Shown piece after piece: positions 1,666 through 62,964 of a DNA stretch of 63,426 nt. The position numbers were made by a program, and so were the translations under genes. The stretch is from contig JAHDNZ010000007.1 in NCBI GenBank assembly GCA_018435125.1, positions 1-63,426 on the forward strand, given 5' to 3'. Each line of letters begins with the position of its first letter. Positions within the stretch are counted from its first letter, which is position 1. A model generated the notes under the pieces. It searched no databases and was not told where the DNA came from. It saw only the letters and a list, made by a program, of their open reading frames with translations. This stretch comes from Bacillota bacterium. GTDB lineage: Bacteria; Bacillota; DTU065.

Positions 1666-1694
1666 GCAGGATATTTCCCCGATATAATGAATTT
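1666..1694 (+). promoter_or_regulatory. Candidate SigH (Spo0H)-type promoter for the riboswitch transcript
   Basis: GCAGGATAT is followed by 14 nt and GAATTT. This fits the Bacillus SigH consensus (RnAGGAWWW, 11-12 nt, RnnGAATWW) at every defined position. A TATAAT lies at 1683-1688 but has no good -35 at the right distance. The same arrangement recurs upstream of the adenine deaminase gene. Confidence 0.45.
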
Positions 1695-1735
1695 ATTATG
1701 CAAAGGGGATTTTGAACTAAAAAAAGGGAAATAAG

Positions 1736-1835
1736 AGCAAAGCGAACATAGCAAACCTGCTTAAAGGCAGGGACGCAAAGCCACGGGTCTAAAGCTTTAT
1801 GCCATGATAGCCGGGTTGCCGAAAGTGCTAAAGAA
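1736..1835 (+). promoter_or_regulatory. c-di-GMP-I (GEMM-I) riboswitch
   Basis: The conserved core is directly readable: GCAAACC, then a P1b-type stem (CTGC..GCAG), GGACGCAAAGCC, and, after the second helix, GCCGGGTTGCCGAA. These match the GEMM-I consensus, including the tetraloop-receptor region. The aptamer lies just upstream of a strong intrinsic terminator and of a gene for a combined c-di-GMP synthase/phosphodiesterase protein, so transcription of that gene should respond to intracellular c-di-GMP. Whether ligand turns it on or off cannot be read without folding the whole leader. Confidence 0.92.
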
Positions 1836-1851
1836 GGGCAGTTATAACTGA

Positions 1852-1902
1852 CCTCTCTTGTGATAGCTATTTGGCAATTCTAGCTATCGAGAGAGGTTTT
1901 TT
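1852..1902 (+). terminator. Riboswitch expression-platform terminator
   Basis: A long hairpin pairs CCTCTCT..GATAGCTA with TAGCTATC..GAGAGG and is followed by a T-run. It sits between the c-di-GMP aptamer and the start codon at 1933, which is the position of a transcriptional expression platform. A small palindrome, CAGTTATAACTG, just upstream (1840-1851) could take part in an alternative fold. Confidence 0.85.
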
Positions 1903-1932
1903 GTCTAATTAACTAACAATGGAAGTGAGAAT

Positions 1933-4900
1933 ATGTATCTAAATCAGTGGATAAAGCTAAGCTTAGTTGCCCTTACTACAATAGGCTTTCTTTCTGCTTT
2001 ATGTAGTTTATGGTTATACCTGGTATTTAGAAAAAAATACATATTTATCTGGTTTTTAAGCTGGGCTTTCAATGGTTTCCGCTATCTTGTTGAATTAAAT
2101 ACTCCTTTTATCTCAACCGACATATCTCAGTATATAGATCTATTTATGATGATTTCAAGCCTTCTTTTTTGGGTTGGATTTGTAACATTTATCAAAAGTA
2201 AAAACAGATATAAAATTTACGGCCCTTACTTTTTAGTGGGAGCAAGTCTGTTATGGGGTGCTCTTTTAAGGTATTTTTTGCATAAACCCAGTTTAGCTTC
2301 GGTACCGGTATTTTTGACAAGTGGATTGTTGGTAATTTTAGCTGGGTGGGATGTCTTTAGAAAAAAATACCAACTAGATCATTTTACTATTGCTAACCCC
2401 CTAGGAGTAACATTAATTCTTTGGGGAATCCATAGAATAGACTTTGCTTTTTTAAGGTATAATGTTAAGTTTGCTCCCTATGGATATCATATAGGCTCTA
2501 TTTTGACAGCTTTTGTATCAATATTTCTTTTTGTATTGGCCATTGAAAAAGAGAAGTATGAGAAAGACACTTCGATTACTAGGTATAAGCTGATCTTTGA
2601 AAATTCTCGCGATATCATGATACTGGTTGACAATAATAACAAAATTGTTGAAGTTAATAATGCCGCAGAAACACTGTATGGTTTCTCCAGAAATGACCTT
2701 TGTGGCAGTTCTATTTATACTGTTAAAGCTGCTTCGAATCTAAATAGTAGCATTGGACTTTATGGAGGAGAGCTATACGAAACCATTCATGTAAAAAAAG
2801 ATGGCAGTTCATTTCCGGTAGAAGTCAGTAGCCAAACTATTAATATTGATGACGAAAAGTTGACCCTTGCCATTATCCGTGATATTACTGAAAGAAAAGC
2901 TAACGAGGCAAAAATAATTAAATCTCAAGAGTTTTACTTATCTCTTTTTGAACAAGTACCGTTGTTGATGTGGCAAGCTAGTCCTAATGGTCAAATAAAC
3001 TATGTCAACCAAAGTTGGTTGGATTTTACGGGAAAAACCAAAGAAGAAGAATTTGGGTTTAATTGGATAACTGGGATCCATCCTGAAGACAGACTTAAAT
3101 ATGAGGCCGAGTATCTTAAAGCGTTAAGAAGTAAAGTACCATTTGAACTTGCTTATCGATTTAAATGCTTTGATGGCAATTACCGTTGGATCATTAATAA
3201 AGGACGACCATTTAACGATTTGGAAGGTAATTATGCCGGCTATATCGGTACCTGTTTTGATGTTACTAGCGAACGTGAATCACGTGAAAAAATTAGCAAG
3301 TTACAGGAAAATCTTTTCATTACCTTAAAAAGTATTAGCGAAGTAGTTATTGCTACTGATGTAGAAGGCAGAATAACCTTTATTAATCCTGCTGCAGAAA
3401 AGATGATCGGGCAAAAAGAGAAAGATGTAGTAAGCAAAAGCATGACTGAGGTAGTGCTATTGTTTTTTGAAGATGACTCTAAATTTTCGGTCTCTGTCGG
3501 TGAGAAAATTGATCCTAACGAAGTAGTAATTAACCAAGAGCTTTATCTTAAAAATGCCGCCGGAGATATTTGCCCCGTAGCCTACTCAGCCAACTTAATT
3601 AAAAAAGAAGATGGCTCTTTGGAAGGCAGGGTAGTTGTACTAAGAGACCTGACCAAAGAAAAAGAAGCAGCCTATGAGTTAAAAGCAAGTGAAGCGAGGT
3701 ATAGGCTAACATTTGAAAATATTGGCGCGGGATTAATGATTTTTGGAGAAGATACCATAGTCGAACTGGTAAATAAAGGCATGGAACAACTCCTTGGATA
3801 CAGTAAAAAAGACCTAGAAGGAAAAGTCAGCTGGACTCAATTTATTAAGCCTCAAGACATAGAAAAAATGCTCAAGTATAAGACCCAATTATTTAGAAAC
3901 GAAAATCCTCCCAAGTTCTTTGAGTTTACATTAATTGATGCCTCCCAGAGAGAACACTATATTTTATGTAATGTAGAATGTTTACCAGGTGGTAAGAAGG
4001 CCATAGCTTCTTGGATTGACATCACCGAGCAAAAGAAGGCCGAAAAAAGAATCAGCTATCTCAGCTACCACGATCATCTTACAGGCTTATATAATCGAGC
4101 TCGCTGCGAAGATGAGTTAAAAAGGCTTGATATACCGGATAACCTACCCTTTAGTGTTATAATGGGCGATGTAAACGGACTTAAGCTTGTTAACGATGCC
4201 TTCGGTCATGAAAAAGGCGACAGTTTGCTTAAAGATATTGCAAACATTCTTTCTACAGTTACCCGAGAAGATGATGTGCTGGCACGCTGGGGTGGAGACG
4301 AGTTTATTATACTTATGCCTAGGACATCCCAAGATGAGGCGGAAAAAGTGTTATCAAGTGTCCAGGAGATTTGTGCAACCCAAGAATCCGAAGCTAATTT
4401 AATTCAGGCTAGCATTTCCCTTGGTTTAGGGGTAAAAACAAATCCAGAGCAAGATTTAAACGAGATAATAAGTCAAGCTGAAAGTTATATGTATAGTCAA
4501 AAATTACAAGATACCCATGAATTTAAAGCCAAAGTTTTTGCAATACTAGAAGAACGCTTATTGGAAAAGAATATGGAAACCAAGCACCATGTTCTTAGGG
4601 TAAAAAAACTTTCAGAACGCCTAGGTAAAGCTATAGGATTAACTAAAACTCAACTTGAAGAGCTTACGATGGCTGCTGCGCTTCATGATATTGGCAAAGT
4701 GGGCTTGGAAAAAAGTTTGTGGACTAGAGATGAAAAACTAACCCCAGGAGAGCTAGAGAAAATAAAAAAGCATCCTTTAGTTGGATACCAAATAATGAAG
4801 ATCTATCCTCAGCTTTCAGGTGTAGCTGAAGCTATTCTTGCCCATCATGAGCGTTGGGATGGCAAAGGGTTTCCGCAAGGCTTAAAAAAGACAGAAATTC

Positions 4901-5085
4901 CTCTTATGGCAAGGATTATAGCTATTGCTGACGCTTTTTATGCTATGACTAATCTTGATGGCAAGCTTACCTCTGAAAAAGTTAAAGAGGCACTACAAAA
5001 GTTGGAAGCAGGAAAGAACACCGAATTTGACCCCGAATTAGTAGAGGCCTTTATTGCAACTTTTAATAAAAAAAAGTCAAAATAA
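1933..5085 (+). CDS. Membrane PAS/GGDEF/HD-GYP c-di-GMP turnover protein
   Basis: This 1050-aa protein has an N-terminal membrane sensor of about seven helices (residues 1-205), then four PAS-like domains (about 212-320, 325-440, 450-575, 582-700), a GGDEF domain (about 708-860) and a C-terminal HD-GYP domain (about 870-1045). The GGDEF motif is intact (787-791) and the inhibitory I-site RxxD (R778..D781) is present, so it should make c-di-GMP with product inhibition. The HD-GYP part keeps HDIGK (918-922) and HHE (971-973), with GFP in place of GYP (979-981), so it may also hydrolyse c-di-GMP. Transcription is under the c-di-GMP riboswitch just upstream, giving feedback. The DUF4855 gene follows after 15 nt. 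The sensed signal is unknown. Confidence 0.93.
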   Translation: MYLNQWIKLSLVALTTIGFLSALCSLWLYLVFRKKYIFIWFLSWAFNGFRYLVELNTPFISTDISQYIDLFMMISSLLFWVGFVTFIKSKNRYKIYGPYFLVGASLLWGALLRYFLHKPSLASVPVFLTSGLLVILAGWDVFRKKYQLDHFTIANPLGVTLILWGIHRIDFAFLRYNVKFAPYGYHIGSILTAFVSIFLFVLAIEKEKYEKDTSITRYKLIFENSRDIMILVDNNNKIVEVNNAAETLYGFSRNDLCGSSIYTVKAASNLNSSIGLYGGELYETIHVKKDGSSFPVEVSSQTINIDDEKLTLAIIRDITERKANEAKIIKSQEFYLSLFEQVPLLMWQASPNGQINYVNQSWLDFTGKTKEEEFGFNWITGIHPEDRLKYEAEYLKALRSKVPFELAYRFKCFDGNYRWIINKGRPFNDLEGNYAGYIGTCFDVTSERESREKISKLQENLFITLKSISEVVIATDVEGRITFINPAAEKMIGQKEKDVVSKSMTEVVLLFFEDDSKFSVSVGEKIDPNEVVINQELYLKNAAGDICPVAYSANLIKKEDGSLEGRVVVLRDLTKEKEAAYELKASEARYRLTFENIGAGLMIFGEDTIVELVNKGMEQLLGYSKKDLEGKVSWTQFIKPQDIEKMLKYKTQLFRNENPPKFFEFTLIDASQREHYILCNVECLPGGKKAIASWIDITEQKKAEKRISYLSYHDHLTGLYNRARCEDELKRLDIPDNLPFSVIMGDVNGLKLVNDAFGHEKGDSLLKDIANILSTVTREDDVLARWGGDEFIILMPRTSQDEAEKVLSSVQEICATQESEANLIQASISLGLGVKTNPEQDLNEIISQAESYMYSQKLQDTHEFKAKVFAILEERLLEKNMETKHHVLRVKKLSERLGKAIGLTKTQLEELTMAAALHDIGKVGLEKSLWTRDEKLTPGELEKIKKHPLVGYQIMKIYPQLSGVAEAILAHHERWDGKGFPQGLKKTEIPLMARIIAIADAFYAMTNLDGKLTSEKVKEALQKLEAGKNTEFDPELVEAFIATFNKKKSK

Positions 5086-5100
5086 TAGGAGGTTAGAAAG

Positions 5101-6141
5101 ATGGAAAAGAGCTATTTCCCACAGTTAACTTCGCAATCAAAAGGAATCAAAGAATTGATGCTAATCTATACCAATTATGGAGCAACTTGGCAAAAGGACG
5201 ATGCTCTTCCTTATGTTTGCTATCTGGAATACAAAGATAATAAACCTGTTATTAAAGATTGGTTTTTTGATAGTTTTTTATTTCTAGCATTGCTTTCTAA
5301 TCAAAAGCGAGCTTTTGATTCTCCTCAAAGAGCCACCCCTGCAATTAAAGAAGACTGGCAATGGTGGCTAGATGACTTATTTGAACCAGGTAAACAGATC
5401 TCTGCCTTTAATGAAGCATTTAGAGTAGCCAATAAGTTTTTGCCTAACAAGAAAAAAGGCAAGATTTATATTATGATACCAAACCCTATAGCAAAGGTTA
5501 AAGAATTTGGGGAGATAGCAGGCGAAAGTCTGGATTTTTCTTCTGCTGATGCTACTCTAGCTACAAGACAAAGATTTAAGGCCGTTAAATGGTTTGTTGA
5601 AAGTTTCCTGGAGCTATATAAAAAAGCCAACCTCGACCAGATCGAACTGGCAGGCTTTTATTGGCTTGAAGAATTGATTCACTTTGACATAGCTGGAGAA
5701 ACCAATTTAGTTAAACAGGTTGCTGATTACCTACACAGCTTAGGTTACAAGTTTTGTTGGATTCCTTGGTTTAGGGCTCCGGGCCATGAGATATGGGATC
5801 AGGTTGGTTTTGATTTTTGTATCCACCAACCCAATTATATGTTTAACGATAAGGTTCCGCTGCAAAGGTTTTTAGATGTAAGCAGTGATGCTAAAAAATA
5901 TCGTCAAGGTATCGAAATCGAAGCTGACCATAGGGTTATTACCTCCAAAGAAGCTAGAGAAAGATTTCGCGATTATCTTAGAGCCGGAGTAACTTATGGC
6001 TTCATGAAGGAAGCTTTGCATGGTTACTATCAAGATGTAAAAGTTCTTGGAATTGCCGCCTCTAGCAATGATCCTGAAGTTAGAGCTATCTATGATGATG
6101 TGTATAGGTTTGTTCAAGGAACTTTTAGCGAAGAATTATAA
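5101..6141 (+). CDS. DUF4855-family protein, no signal peptide
   Basis: The 346-aa sequence shows DUF4855 hallmarks: an opening with YTNYGATW and LPYVCYL, DSFLFLALL, AFDSP, a WQWWLDDLF block, IYIMIPNP, GFYWLEELIH and CIHQPNYMF. These are typical of this uncharacterised, probably TIM-barrel family often found in secreted glycoside-hydrolase-like proteins of Bacillota. Unusually, this copy has no signal peptide and no accessory domain and starts straight into the domain; the ATG at 5101 has ATAGGAGG upstream. It lies 15 nt after the c-di-GMP turnover gene and is almost certainly co-transcribed, hence under the riboswitch. A secreted but frameshifted paralogue lies at 39148-41038. Conserved acidic residues (for example EIEAD near residue 280) could be catalytic, but no activity is established. 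Confidence 0.85.
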   Translation: MEKSYFPQLTSQSKGIKELMLIYTNYGATWQKDDALPYVCYLEYKDNKPVIKDWFFDSFLFLALLSNQKRAFDSPQRATPAIKEDWQWWLDDLFEPGKQISAFNEAFRVANKFLPNKKKGKIYIMIPNPIAKVKEFGEIAGESLDFSSADATLATRQRFKAVKWFVESFLELYKKANLDQIELAGFYWLEELIHFDIAGETNLVKQVADYLHSLGYKFCWIPWFRAPGHEIWDQVGFDFCIHQPNYMFNDKVPLQRFLDVSSDAKKYRQGIEIEADHRVITSKEARERFRDYLRAGVTYGFMKEALHGYYQDVKVLGIAASSNDPEVRAIYDDVYRFVQGTFSEEL

Positions 6142-7115: not shown

Positions 7116-7293
7116 AAAATCACCTCTTTTTTTTAGCTTAAGCTATATGCTGGTTAGTTATCAAAGAAAATCACTGCTAAAGCATACCAGTTACTGGTTA
7201 AATTAGTACCAAAGGATTTTTAGGAAAGGAGCAAAATATAAAAGGGTAATAATAATATTAAAACGAAGACAACCTAAAAGGAGGTTGGTATTA

Positions 7294-9288
7294 TTGTTAA
7301 TTAATATTATGGCAATTACCCTTATGGTTATAGTTAGTATTTTTCCAGCTCAAGCCGAGAATTATGTATCGGCTTCAAAAAGACTTATCCCAAAACCGGT
7401 AGAGGTAGAAAACCTAGATACGGTTTTTGAGCTTTCTCAAGCCAATTGGTATCTCGGCAAGGCTACAGATAGATTCCCACTCGATGAGTATCTGAAGGAA
7501 TTAAAGATAGCTGGAGTAAGCCAAGAAGGTCAAAAAAATGCTTATTTTGGAACAGTTAATGATCTAGGTGAGGTAGAAGCTTGTAAAGAGGCTCTAAAAA
7601 ATGTTCCCGAAGATGAGGAAGGGTATTATTTAGAAGTTACTAATGACAAGCTAGTTGTCATAGGGCGGTCTGACGCCGGTGCATTTTATGGTATTCAGAC
7701 TCTTAGACAGCTAACTGAAGATGATAAGTTAGTTGCAGTGGGAGCTAGAATTATAGATTATCCAGCTCTTCGCTATCGAGCAATTACTGATGATATTTCC
7801 AGAGGACCCTTAACCAAGCTGGAATTTATGAAGCAGATTATAAAAACAATGAGTTCATTTAAGCTAAATATCTATTCGCCCTACATGGAACTCCAGGTTC
7901 TAGAGGGTATAAGGTTGCCGGAGGAGACTATCTCCACTAACGATTATGAGGAATTAATTGCCTTTTCTAAAAAATACCATGTCGATGTAGTCCCATCCTT
8001 ACAGACCTTTGGTCATTGTACCGTCTTTTTAGCTTTACCAGACTATAAGCATTTAGGGAATCTCTCTTCAGGAAGTTCACAGCTAGATCCGACTAATCCA
8101 AAGGTCTATGAATTCCTAGAACAAGAGATCTCCAAATTGGCATCTTTAACTAAGGCCCCCTTTATCAATATTGGTGGGGATGAAACCTGGGAGCTAGCTT
8201 CGGGAAATAGTGGCATTGAGGTTAGTAGAATCGGAGCTTGCAATGTGTATCTTGAACATATTCTTAAGGTGATGGAAATAGTTAAGAAGAATGGTAAAAT
8301 ACCAATGTTTTGGGGAGATATGGTTCTTGCTCATCCGGAATTAATCGCTAAGCTGCCTGAAGATGTCATTGTTTTGAATTGGCATTATGGGGATGCAACC
8401 AGTATGCCGCAAAGACTAGCTCCCTTCCAAGCTGAAGGTAAAAGACAATGGGCAGCACCGGGAATTGATAACTGGCTAAGAATTTTTCCGTTTTACTTAA
8501 GCTCTAATAACAATGTTAACAGCTTTGCTAAAATTGGAACCAAACATGGTATAGAGGGTCTATTTACAACTACTTGGGATGACGATGGAGATACACTTTT
8601 TGGTAATAATTGGTATGGTGTTGTTTTTGCTAGTGAAGCTGCCTGGAAAGGTGGAGGTCCTGGAACTAGCTTTTTTAATAACAGATTTGATTTGGCTGTA
8701 TTTGGTCAAGATTATGATATACAAGATGCCATCATGAAACTGGCGTATACTAACTACTACACTTATCAAGGCTATTTCAAAAACAGCAATCTCTTGTTTT
8801 TTAAGGATCCTTTTGCAGATTTAGAGATATACAATATGGCTTCAAATGGCAGTCAATTGGTTTTAACCGAAGAACAAGTGCTAAAAACCTTGGCTAAGGC
8901 GGATGTTAAGAGAAATCAGCATTTTCTTTCAACTCTTAGTTTTACAGCCTGGAAAGTGGGGACTTTTGGACGCAAGCTATTGGTTACTAAAAAGGTGATT
9001 GATACTGTAACTGAAATCGAAGGAACACCAGAAACTGAAAAACTCTACGAATTAGCACAAGACCTCTATGCTTTAGAAAAAGAGATTCGCGAGCTATACA
9101 ACGAGTTTTCGACTCTTTATCTTAAAGAAAACAAAAGTAGTTTTTTGAATGAATTAAAGCAACGCTATCTATCGTTGCGTTCATGTCTATTTGCTAAAGC
9201 AATGGAACTCGAGAATGCAAGTTACCAAGAATATGTTCAATCACCAGAGATGTTAGGTTTGCCACGATCACCAAAAAAGAAGAAATAA
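7294..9288 (+). CDS. Secreted family 20 glycoside hydrolase (beta-N-acetylhexosaminidase-like)
   Basis: The protein should release terminal beta-linked GlcNAc/GalNAc outside the cell. It has a signal peptide ending near FPAQA, a GH20b-type N-terminal domain (about 30-155) and the catalytic TIM barrel (about 160-460). The family's catalytic pair is visible in GGDE (D296-E297), with the preceding barrel strands (YRAITDD; VVPSLQTFGH) and WGD, WHYGD and TTWDDDG later. The C-terminal 170 residues are helical. I choose the TTG at 7294 because AAAGGAGG is 9 nt upstream; an in-frame TTG at 7285 lies inside that site. It is a single gene with its own terminator. Of the neighbours, only the gal genes also concern sugars. 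Confidence 0.88.
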   Translation: MLINIMAITLMVIVSIFPAQAENYVSASKRLIPKPVEVENLDTVFELSQANWYLGKATDRFPLDEYLKELKIAGVSQEGQKNAYFGTVNDLGEVEACKEALKNVPEDEEGYYLEVTNDKLVVIGRSDAGAFYGIQTLRQLTEDDKLVAVGARIIDYPALRYRAITDDISRGPLTKLEFMKQIIKTMSSFKLNIYSPYMELQVLEGIRLPEETISTNDYEELIAFSKKYHVDVVPSLQTFGHCTVFLALPDYKHLGNLSSGSSQLDPTNPKVYEFLEQEISKLASLTKAPFINIGGDETWELASGNSGIEVSRIGACNVYLEHILKVMEIVKKNGKIPMFWGDMVLAHPELIAKLPEDVIVLNWHYGDATSMPQRLAPFQAEGKRQWAAPGIDNWLRIFPFYLSSNNNVNSFAKIGTKHGIEGLFTTTWDDDGDTLFGNNWYGVVFASEAAWKGGGPGTSFFNNRFDLAVFGQDYDIQDAIMKLAYTNYYTYQGYFKNSNLLFFKDPFADLEIYNMASNGSQLVLTEEQVLKTLAKADVKRNQHFLSTLSFTAWKVGTFGRKLLVTKKVIDTVTEIEGTPETEKLYELAQDLYALEKEIRELYNEFSTLYLKENKSSFLNELKQRYLSLRSCLFAKAMELENASYQEYVQSPEMLGLPRSPKKKK

Positions 9289-38922: not shown

Positions 38923-39147
38923 TATACCAAATGCAGTGTAAATATCAAGTGCAAGTTAAATAAATTAAGTAGGAATTAAGATAATCTAGTGGAGTTAATG
39001 GAAAGTAGATAAGGTTTTATTTTTATGCCAACTGATATATAACAGACAAATCCTAGCTTACCTAAAAAAAGCCTAGGGTAAAATATAAGTTATATCATGT
39101 TATATAAAACCCTATTTTGTTTCAAAATAAAATGGGGGTGTAAAGAA

Positions 39148-41038
39148 ATGAGAAAAAGTATTCTTTTAGCAGTTTGCTTAACACTGGCTTTAATAAGTGT
39201 TGCTTTAGCAGCTCCGACCAACTTTGCGCTTAAGAAAGAGTATATTGTTAATCGTGAAGCTTCTCCAACTTACCCGGATAATTATAAGCTTATATACAGT
39301 AACGCTGCTAGGTATAGCAGTCCAGCTTTTGTAGGTTATCTTGGCGAAGATCCGATGATTTGGGTAGTTGATCTTATTGATGTTTACAAGATTGATAAGG
39401 TGCTAGCTAACTTCCTTAGCCAAAAAAAGATGGTTGTTTTTTGCCAAAGTTACTCTACCTTTCAATTTCAGTCGATGGCAAAAAGTGGAAGTTAATTGAG
39501 GCAAACACCTCAAAAAAGTCTCCAAAAAACAGCGACCAATCTTCTTTTAAATGAGCCTGGCTTTACTTTTGTATCTATAGGGGAGAACAATTGGAAAAAC
39601 TACCACTTAAAACTTGATCTTAAACCACTTAGTTATGGAACAAAAGGTGTGTTACACTTGTTTTCGCTAGGAGTTTTTTTGGTCTAGCTACTCCTTAGAT
39701 ATTACAGCTGAGAAAACACAGCTAGTTCGTTATGATGGTATTTGGGATAAATACAGGGTCTTAGCTGAGGGAAGAGGTATTCAATCCGGCGAAGAAATAA
39801 GCATTACTCTTGAGGTATTGGAAGATCAAATCAAGGTATTTTATAATAGCGAGTTATGTTTAGAAGCTGAAAGCAATAAATATAAAACAGGTAAACTAGT
39901 CCTCTTCTCAGAAAACGTAGCCTTTAGAGCTTCAAAGGTCTATGTAGAAGGCACAATCGAAGAGGAGTATTCCTCCAGGGATCGCGGTTATATACCCCAA
40001 GGTGACCCTCAAGGTGGTAGGGTAGAGCATATGGTCTTAATTTATGGCAATGCAGGCACTAAATGGGATCTTATAAGTGCATATCCCTATGTCGGTTACC
40101 TTAGTCCGTTAGAAGAAAGTAATTTTCAGATTGAATTTACGGACTATCTCTTTGATAGTGTGATGTTTTTAGCATTAACAGCACCAAATGGCTATGCTTT
40201 TGATTCACCTAGCCGAGGTAAACCAGCTCTTAAAGAGCAATGGCAGTGGTATCTTGATTCGTTATTTACAGAAGGAAGACACCTAGCTGCTTTTGACGAA
40301 GCCATGGATAAAGTAAATAATCAGCTAGGCCAAGAGCGAAAATTAAAGATCTATATCATGATTCCCAATCCAATGCCCCAGATTAAAAGTTTTGGTGCAG
40401 TAGATAATACCAGCTCACTTAACTTTTCTCTTAAAGACTCCATAGCCAATAAAGAGCAACGTTATAAAGCTGTAAAATGGTATTTAGACCAATTCTTTGT
40501 CTGTTACGAAAAAGCTAATTATAAAAACATAGAATTAATTGGTTTTTACTGGTTACAAGAGATTGTAGATCGTAGCATTCCGGGGGAACTCGAGTTACTT
40601 AAAGATATTAACAGCTACCTTCACGCCAGAGAGTTAAAGTTTTCCTGGATACCTTACTTTAATGTTGACGGTCGCAGGGAGTATGAAAATTTAGGTTGTG
40701 ATCTTTGCATTTACCAGCCAAACTATATGTTTGGTGCCGATATTCTCCCGACTAGATTGCTTGAAACTGCCAAAGGAGCGTATAAATACCGTTTAGGTGT
40801 AGAGATTGAAGCTGATATCAGTGTTCTTTCAACCTTAAAAGGCCGAGAAAAGCTGTATGATTATTTCAGAGCTGGGTTATCCTATGGTTTTATAACTGAG
40901 GCGACCTTAGCCTACTACCAGGATATTGAAGTATTTAGTTTGGCAGCCACAAGTTCTGCACCAGAAAAAAAAGCGGTTTATGATAATCTTTATAAGTTTA
41001 AAGGAACTTGGGAAGAATCACTTGAAGCCAGAAGATAG
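39148..41038 (+). pseudogene. Frameshifted secreted DUF4855 protein with discoidin/LamG-like N-terminus
   Basis: The gene starts with a good ribosome-binding site (GGGGGTG), an ATG at 39148 and a signal peptide (RKSILLAVCLTLALISVALA). A discoidin-like segment follows (WVVDLIDVYKIDKVLANFL). At the A7 run near 39422 the frame shifts to one reading SISVDGKKWKLIEANTS; it shifts again near 39540 (NEPGFTFVSIGENNWKNYHL, a LamG-like strand set) and a third time at the T7 run near 39671. From there to 41038 is an intact DUF4855 domain (GNAGTKWD, YIMIPNP, GFYWLQEIVD, CIYQPNYMF) paralogous to the 346-aa protein at 5101. It is either a real pseudogene or a gene hit by homopolymer errors. Confidence 0.8.
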
Positions 41039-41303: not shown

Positions 41304-41488
41304 AAGCAAAAATGACGGCTAAATTTGGTATGAAATCCAACGAGCGTTTTAAGCGAATCGGATACCTCAGCTTCAGTGAATGTTATTCTGCAAGCAATGT
41401 GTAAACTTTGGAAGCGCCGTATACCGAACGGTATGTACGGTGCTGTGGGAGGTCGGCTACTCAAATAAGGGGTAGCCTCCTACCCGAT
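41304..41488 (+). mobile_element. 3' end of a group IIC intron (IEP tail, domains V and VI)
   Basis: A short open frame ending FGMKSNERFKRIGYLSFSECY and a few more residues looks like the C-terminus of an intron-encoded protein. A canonical domain V follows at 41413-41443 (GCCGTATACCGAACGGTATG within a GCGC..GTAC frame). Domain VI and a CTCCTACCCGAT 3' end follow to 41488, the same end as the copy at 53779. The 5' domains and most of the reverse transcriptase are missing, so it cannot move by itself. Confidence 0.82.
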
Positions 41489-53124: not shown

Positions 53125-53779
53125 GTGCGCCCGACATGGGTAATAACTTGGTGGCGAAAGTCCACTACACGTTTGGCAGTAGGAAACGTTAGCCAAAGGA
53201 AGGGTGTTCGTCGCGAGGCGAAATCTGTAGGAAGCAAGAGGCAAAGTCCCGAACCGATGTACAGAAACCGCATATAAGGCTGATTTAGAACGGACGAGCT
53301 TACAATACAAAGCGAAGTCCAATACTACCCTAACTCTATACAGTAAATGCGGCGGTTACATGGGATGAAGGTTATTGCACCTTCCTCGGGGAGGTCTGTA
53401 GGGTATGTTATGCAAGGTGATGAACTATTCGCCTCTTAGCAACCTCTACCGATAAGCAGAGATGAACGTGCAGAAGTCAGTTCAAGTTGTAGTACCGTAG
53501 AAGTTACTGAAAGCTAATCGAGAAAAGGACTCGATGGTTACAGCGAATTAGTCGTAGTTTACTGAAGAAACGAAAATAGCAGTTGCTCGAAAGAGGTTAT
53601 TTGTCTGAAAGGAGGTTGGAAAACGAGGATAGACGACAAGAACACTTAGTGACCAAGGATAGACTATGCAAGACATACGCCAGATTTACTGAAACTGAAC
53701 CGCTGTGAGCGTGTTTTGCATACTCGGTGGTGTGGGAGGACGGGAGTTAGTTATGGTTAGTCACCCCCTCCTACCCGAT
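53125..53779 (+). mobile_element. ORF-less group IIC intron, both ends present
   Basis: The element starts with GTGCGCCCGACATGGG, the group II 5' signature, shows the IIC-like core (GGTGGCGAAAGTCC, GGGTGTTCGTCGCGAGG, AGTCCCGAACC, ACAAAGCGAAGTCC, AGAAGTCAGTTC.AGT.GTAGTACC) and ends with a domain VI and CTCCTACCCGAT. It is only 655 nt: the reverse-transcriptase ORF expected in domain IV is reduced to a few broken codons. Domain V is aberrant (GCTGTGAGCGTGTTTTGCAT in place of the GCCGTAT..ATAC-type sequence seen at 41413), so self-splicing is doubtful. The first 432 nt are closely similar to the copy at 62532. Confidence 0.88.
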
Positions 53780-62531: not shown

Positions 62532-62964
62532 GTGTGCCTGACATAGGCAATAAGTTGGTGGCGAAAGTCCACTGCACGCTTGGTAGTAGGAAGCGTTAGC
62601 CAAAAGCAAGGGTGTCCGTCGCGAGGCAGAATCTGGAGGAAGCTAGAAGCAAAGTCCCGAACCGGCGTACCGAAACCGCATAAAAGGCTGATTTAGAGCG
62701 GATGAGCTTGCAATACAAAGCGAAGTCCAATACTACCCGAACTATATACAGTAAATGCAGCGGTTACATGGGATGAAGATTATTGCACCTTCCTCGGAGA
62801 GGTCTGTATGGTATGCTATGCAAGGTGATGAACTATTCGCCTCTTAGCAACCTCTACCGATAGGCAGAGCTGAACGTGCAGAAGTCAGTTCGAGTCATAG
62901 TACCGTAGAAGTTAGTGAAATTGAATCGAGAAAAAGACTATATGGTTACAGTGAATTAGTCGTA
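62532..62964 (+). mobile_element. 5' fragment of a group IIC intron (copy 2)
   Basis: From GTGTGCCTGACATAGGC to GAATTAGTCGTA the sequence parallels 53125-53556 nearly base for base, with mostly single substitutions. The domain IV ORF, domain V and domain VI are absent, and unrelated coding sequence starts immediately after. It is a truncated, inactive copy. Confidence 0.85.

Follow-up and report, generated by a model that had tools for sequence, protein, structure and literature searches.

The 63,426-nucleotide stretch of Bacillota DNA that we analyzed (the window) carries a GEMM-I riboswitch ahead of a gene for a predicted bifunctional diguanylate cyclase/c-di-GMP phosphodiesterase (DGC/PDE). 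This module, a putative feedback loop, is real and conserved, and it is uncommon for its riboswitch class (PMC6366702). The best explanation for the element as a whole, to which we give a probability of roughly two in three, is a ligand-OFF switch that would form a self-regulating loop on the bifunctional enzyme, with c-di-GMP as the most likely ligand and with the adjacent DUF4855 gene as an independently conserved neighbor. The initial annotation had proposed a closed c-di-GMP feedback loop. The tie between riboswitch and DGC/PDE gene held in all three orthologues and a sign can now be proposed for the loop (ligand = OFF), but the ligand itself is uncertain, given an A at the specificity base. 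Features are listed in Table 1.

Table 1. Positions of the riboswitch, enzyme and DUF4855 features in the window.
Feature	Position	Strand	Basis
GEMM-I (c-di-GMP-I class) riboswitch aptamer	1740-1823	+	RF01051 covariance-model match, 79 bits
Specificity nucleotide at the Vc2 G20 position; A in the window, as in GEMM-Ib	1750	+	Rfam alignment
Ligand-contacting nucleotide, equivalent to A47	1777	+	27 nt past position 20, within conserved GACGCAAA
Antiterminator pairing of the aptamer 3' strand GAUAGCCGGGUUGCCGAAA (1806-1824) with UUUGGCAAUUCUAGCUAUC (1870-1888)	1806-1888	+	MFE fold, -55.9 kcal/mol
Intrinsic terminator (1852-1896) with U6 tail	1852-1902	+	Fold, -20.4 kcal/mol; forms once aptamer helix P3 is enforced
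Membrane-anchored PAS4-GGDEF-HD-GYP protein (putative diguanylate cyclase/c-di-GMP phosphodiesterase)	1933-5085	+	Pfam PF00990, PF13487 and PAS; motifs; anchor read from hydrophobic N-terminus
AGGAGG Shine-Dalgarno sequence for DUF4855, within the 15-nt gap	5088-5093	+	Sequence
DUF4855 protein without a signal peptide; predicted TIM-barrel fold; conserved neighbor, probably outside the conserved circuit	5101-6141	+	PF16147, 310 bits; AF2 mean pLDDT 91.2

The riboswitch leader and the enzyme gene

The aptamer scored far above the RF01051 gathering score of 35 bits (E = 7e-14 in a search of the window), had the conserved core, and was the only GEMM-I copy recovered in a search of the genome. Its score and the fold of the terminator confirm the aptamer and terminator that had been read here in the initial annotation. 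It has the aptamer fold, A47, interhelical C and transcription-termination platform of the GEMM-I riboswitches Vc2, Cd1 and Bc1, but differs from them in having A, not G, at position 20.

We compared two folds of the leader, using energies that are equilibrium rather than co-transcriptional estimates. In the minimum free energy (MFE) fold, the 3' strand of the aptamer was paired with the loop and 3' arm of the terminator; when aptamer helix P3 was forced, the terminator formed, at -51.2 kcal/mol. Ligand binding that paid the difference between the two folds would cause transcription to terminate, and so we propose that the leader is a transcription switch of the ligand-OFF type. Binding of a cyclic dinucleotide would let the aptamer retain its 3' strand, the terminator would form, and the DGC/PDE gene would be off. 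With no ligand, the 3' strand would pair with the terminator and the gene would be read, giving a membrane-bound enzyme predicted to make and hydrolyze c-di-GMP. Since the leader appears to be ligand-OFF, the loop would be one of negative feedback, in which the riboswitch probably shuts off the gene of its own enzyme. Class I riboswitches in C. difficile are also mostly OFF (PMC6200980).

The enzyme contains four PAS domains, and its GGDEF and HD_5 domains were far beyond the Pfam cut-offs. The GGDEF, I-site and HD-GYP motifs had been described as intact and all are present, with GFP in place of GYP in the last. On the cyclase side there are the GGDEF motif, the base-recognizing Asp (in NDAFGHEKGD) and an I-site (REDD) five residues ahead of GGDEF; on the phosphodiesterase side there are the HD pair, HDIGK, and HHERWDGKGFP, which fits HHExxDGxG(Y/F)P. 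Judged from these motifs, the product should both make and hydrolyze c-di-GMP. PAS-GGDEF-HD-GYP bifunctional enzymes likewise have intact GGDEF, I-site and HD-GYP metal-site motifs; unlike them, this one is encoded behind a cyclic-dinucleotide riboswitch. The target also sets the switch apart from GEMM-I riboswitches in general, as cyclic-dinucleotide riboswitches rarely control c-di-GMP metabolic enzymes (PMC6366702).

We examined conservation in five genomes from four genera of the family: the source genome, G002, G003, and two genomes of genus g2. DGC orthologues were found in G002 (58% identical) and G003 (51%), with a riboswitch upstream in all three cases and the GGDEF, I-site and HD-GYP motifs intact in each, so that riboswitch and enzyme are paired in three of the four genera. 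The family search found no DGC orthologue in either g2 genome. G004 had no GEMM-I match above the cut-off. The GEMM-I riboswitch of G001 lies ahead of a FapA gene, and on that ground we do not take it for a displaced orthologue. The G002 riboswitch also matched RF03167 (c-di-GMP-I-GGC), and was rejected as a true GGC variant: its A47 position is A, and that of the model is G. G003 and G002 allow the same mutually exclusive pairing, and in all three genera the terminator formed when the aptamer helix was imposed. The antiterminator was the MFE fold of the window and G002 leaders; that of G003 had a different MFE fold. Between aptamer and terminator (1829-1860), a GGGCAGUUUAUACUG-like hairpin followed by CCUCUCUU is kept in the window and at the G003 and G002 loci; this stretch may belong to the switching platform.

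Identity of the ligand

We rebuilt the riboswitch numbering from two published descriptions. G12 and A39 of Vc1 correspond to G20 and A47 of Vc2, and C36 of Vc1 is the universally conserved interhelical C (PMC4744006); the Bc1 equivalents of positions 20 and 47 are G11 and A38 (PMC11218506). The 27-nt spacing to A47, together with the C three bases before A47, places position 20 (model position 11) at nucleotide 1750. The A found there is the base of GEMM-Ib (cGAMP) riboswitches, not the G of c-di-GMP-selective GEMM-I riboswitches, and it makes c-di-GMP uncertain as the ligand. We rejected an assembly error at 1750, because G003, a separately assembled genome of another genus, also had A; the orthologous riboswitch of G002 has G. 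In a phylum sample skewed to high-scoring matches, and with a search pattern that demanded an adjacent GCAAA, position 20 was G in 53 rows and A in five, or about 52 G and four A without two double-counted loci. The A-bearing loci (four of about 56 distinct ones) were those of the source genome, G003, G026 and G100. The last two are GEMM-I riboswitches from other families of the phylum.

The main alternative is that the A marks a true cGAMP (GEMM-Ib) sensor, in which case a second cyclic dinucleotide would control the DGC/PDE gene and the arrangement would be cross-talk rather than self-feedback. We consider this unlikely. It would fit the presence of A in both the window and G003, the rarity of A in the phylum sample, and the finding that A20G alone made the Geobacter Gmet_0970 riboswitch select c-di-GMP instead of cGAMP (PMC6456294). 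Given that result and the A in two genera, c-di-GMP may be a poor ligand. Against a cGAMP sensor, each of the genome's four GGDEF domains has the canonical Asp at the position of the Hypr Ser348, and no SMODS domain was found; thus neither kind of cGAMP synthase, Hypr GGDEF or SMODS/CD-NTase, was found in this 96%-complete genome. The G in the G002 orthologue also argues against it. In addition, cGAMP riboswitches reportedly can bind c-di-GMP by way of a protonated adenine, to go by the title of a 2018 study by Keller and colleagues. The position-20 equivalent has been treated as a selectivity factor and not as a hard filter (PMC9262584), and that paper cites work on adenine protonation that lets cGAMP riboswitches bind c-di-GMP.

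With the Asp present in all four GGDEF proteins and a SMODS cyclase not found, c-di-GMP is the likelier ligand of the riboswitch, although possibly bound less tightly owing to the A at position 20. The genome has the parts for c-di-GMP signaling: four GGDEF, three PilZ and three HD-GYP domains. The Geobacter GEMM-Ib riboswitches share the A, but differ in gene context and in that the source genome is without a Hypr GGDEF; the GSU1761 switch among them is described as ON (PMC6456294), whereas the leader here is predicted to be OFF. Tentatively, the specificity base of the orthologous riboswitch may have changed between A and G from one sister genus to another, with the DGC/PDE gene behind it remaining the same. 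This would leave a Hypr-less bacterium with a GEMM-Ib-type switch that either is tuned, via a protonated adenine, to high levels of c-di-GMP or senses cGAMP made by an unknown synthase.

The neighboring DUF4855 gene

The DUF4855 start codon lies 15 nt past the DGC stop, and the protein matched nearly the whole PF16147 profile (2-313 of 313). Only four further in-frame codons lie upstream, so a signal peptide is impossible. A signal-less DUF4855 gene at this distance had been noted and is borne out, as is the statement, within this family, that DUF4855 proteins are usually secreted: the genome's nine further copies occupy frames of 455-812 aa, and the ones that we read are extended at the N-terminus, mostly with a start that resembles a signal peptide. 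The copy next to the DGC gene differs from them in having neither a signal peptide nor an extra N-terminal domain. Other complete copies in the five family genomes are likewise all in longer frames. A cytosolic form is less exceptional than the initial annotation had supposed, however, as a single-copy, signal-less orthologue (69-71% identical) occurs in all five family genomes and signal-less DUF4855 proteins were found in two or more additional families of the phylum (G324, G211, G284).

Several other features of the window were observed. A GH20-type beta-N-acetylhexosaminidase gene (7285-9288) lies shortly downstream of DUF4855. A second DUF4855 copy (39097-41038) has a signal-peptide-like start (39148) and an N-terminal domain broken across several frames, and its DUF4855 domain (39980-41020) is still open; it looks like a decayed secreted paralogue. 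There are strong matches to group II intron domains D1-D4 at 53207-53378 (143 bits) and 62615-62786 (124 bits) and a separate Intron_gpII match at 41412-41488; we saw no ORF of the length expected for a reverse transcriptase adjoining these three matches in the window.

DUF4855 had been proposed as the output of a single conserved c-di-GMP-controlled operon, which we now regard as quite improbable. The 15-nt gap, the gene's own Shine-Dalgarno sequence and the adjacency kept in three genera are consistent with such an operon, and no terminator was found between the two genes in the window. In both relatives with the same gene order, by contrast, an intrinsic terminator with a strong hairpin and T tract separates DGC from DUF4855 (-20.9 kcal/mol in G003; -18.1 kcal/mol in G002, where a terminator scan agreed). 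The G002 locus also has a promoter-like site, TTGAAA-16-TAGAAT, just ahead of DUF4855. A survey of the neighborhood recovered the order riboswitch-DGC-DUF4855 in three genera but not in genus g2, whose DUF4855 orthologues lack both DGC and riboswitch, and no DGC was seen adjoining the signal-less genes of the other families. Because terminators are present in both relatives and none was found in the window, riboswitch control of DUF4855 would be at most local to the source genome. There, the short gap and strong Shine-Dalgarno sequence make co-transcription by read-through plausible. DUF4855 is probably outside the conserved circuit, as a separable and independently conserved neighbor.

The initial annotation had also suggested a TIM barrel to be compared with glycoside hydrolases. 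A confident AF2 model (pTM 0.91) with eight barrel strands supports the fold. Residues E190/E191 follow strand 4 and E272/E274 are on strand 7, and they are conserved in the alignment. Glu residues at strands 4 and 7 are the arrangement of 4/7-type glycosidases. Foldseek matched many TIM barrels, including those of GH18, GH66, GH5, GH30 and GH84, but these matches were generic, with TM only about 0.4, and no PDB sequence match was found. As modeled, DUF4855 resembles TIM-barrel glycoside hydrolases in its eight strands and conserved Glu residues, but only weakly in overall structure. Our literature search on DUF4855 returned nothing of use. The best hypothesis from the model is that the cytosolic protein is a glycosidase-like enzyme.

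The surroundings of other signal-less copies differ. In genus g2, DUF4855 sits between an FAD-dependent oxidoreductase gene and a manganese-catalase gene that we take to be of the CotJC type. In G324 (L161, 3307-8119), it is beside genes that we read as NanE-like, SIS-domain, BadF-type kinase-like and DeoR-like. This context suggests amino-sugar catabolism as a lead to the role of cytosolic DUF4855.

Implications for c-di-GMP control and for DUF4855

A degenerate, non-functional riboswitch remnant ahead of an ordinary DGC gene would account for an A where the phylum sample nearly always has G, but it is very improbable for an aptamer of 79 bits with every conserved core motif and a mutually exclusive terminator and antiterminator that are intact and conserved in three genera. 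The self-regulating loop remains our preferred reading. Enzymes of cyclic-dinucleotide metabolism are seldom under a riboswitch for their own messenger (PMC6366702), so a conserved example in front of a predicted bifunctional DGC/PDE would offer a feedback loop that is compact and open to testing. Orthologues that differ in A or G at the specificity base provide a natural test of ligand change in GEMM-I switches. With DUF4855 taken out of the circuit, a mistaken functional assignment is avoided, and the TIM-barrel model gives this uncharacterized family its first concrete hypothesis.
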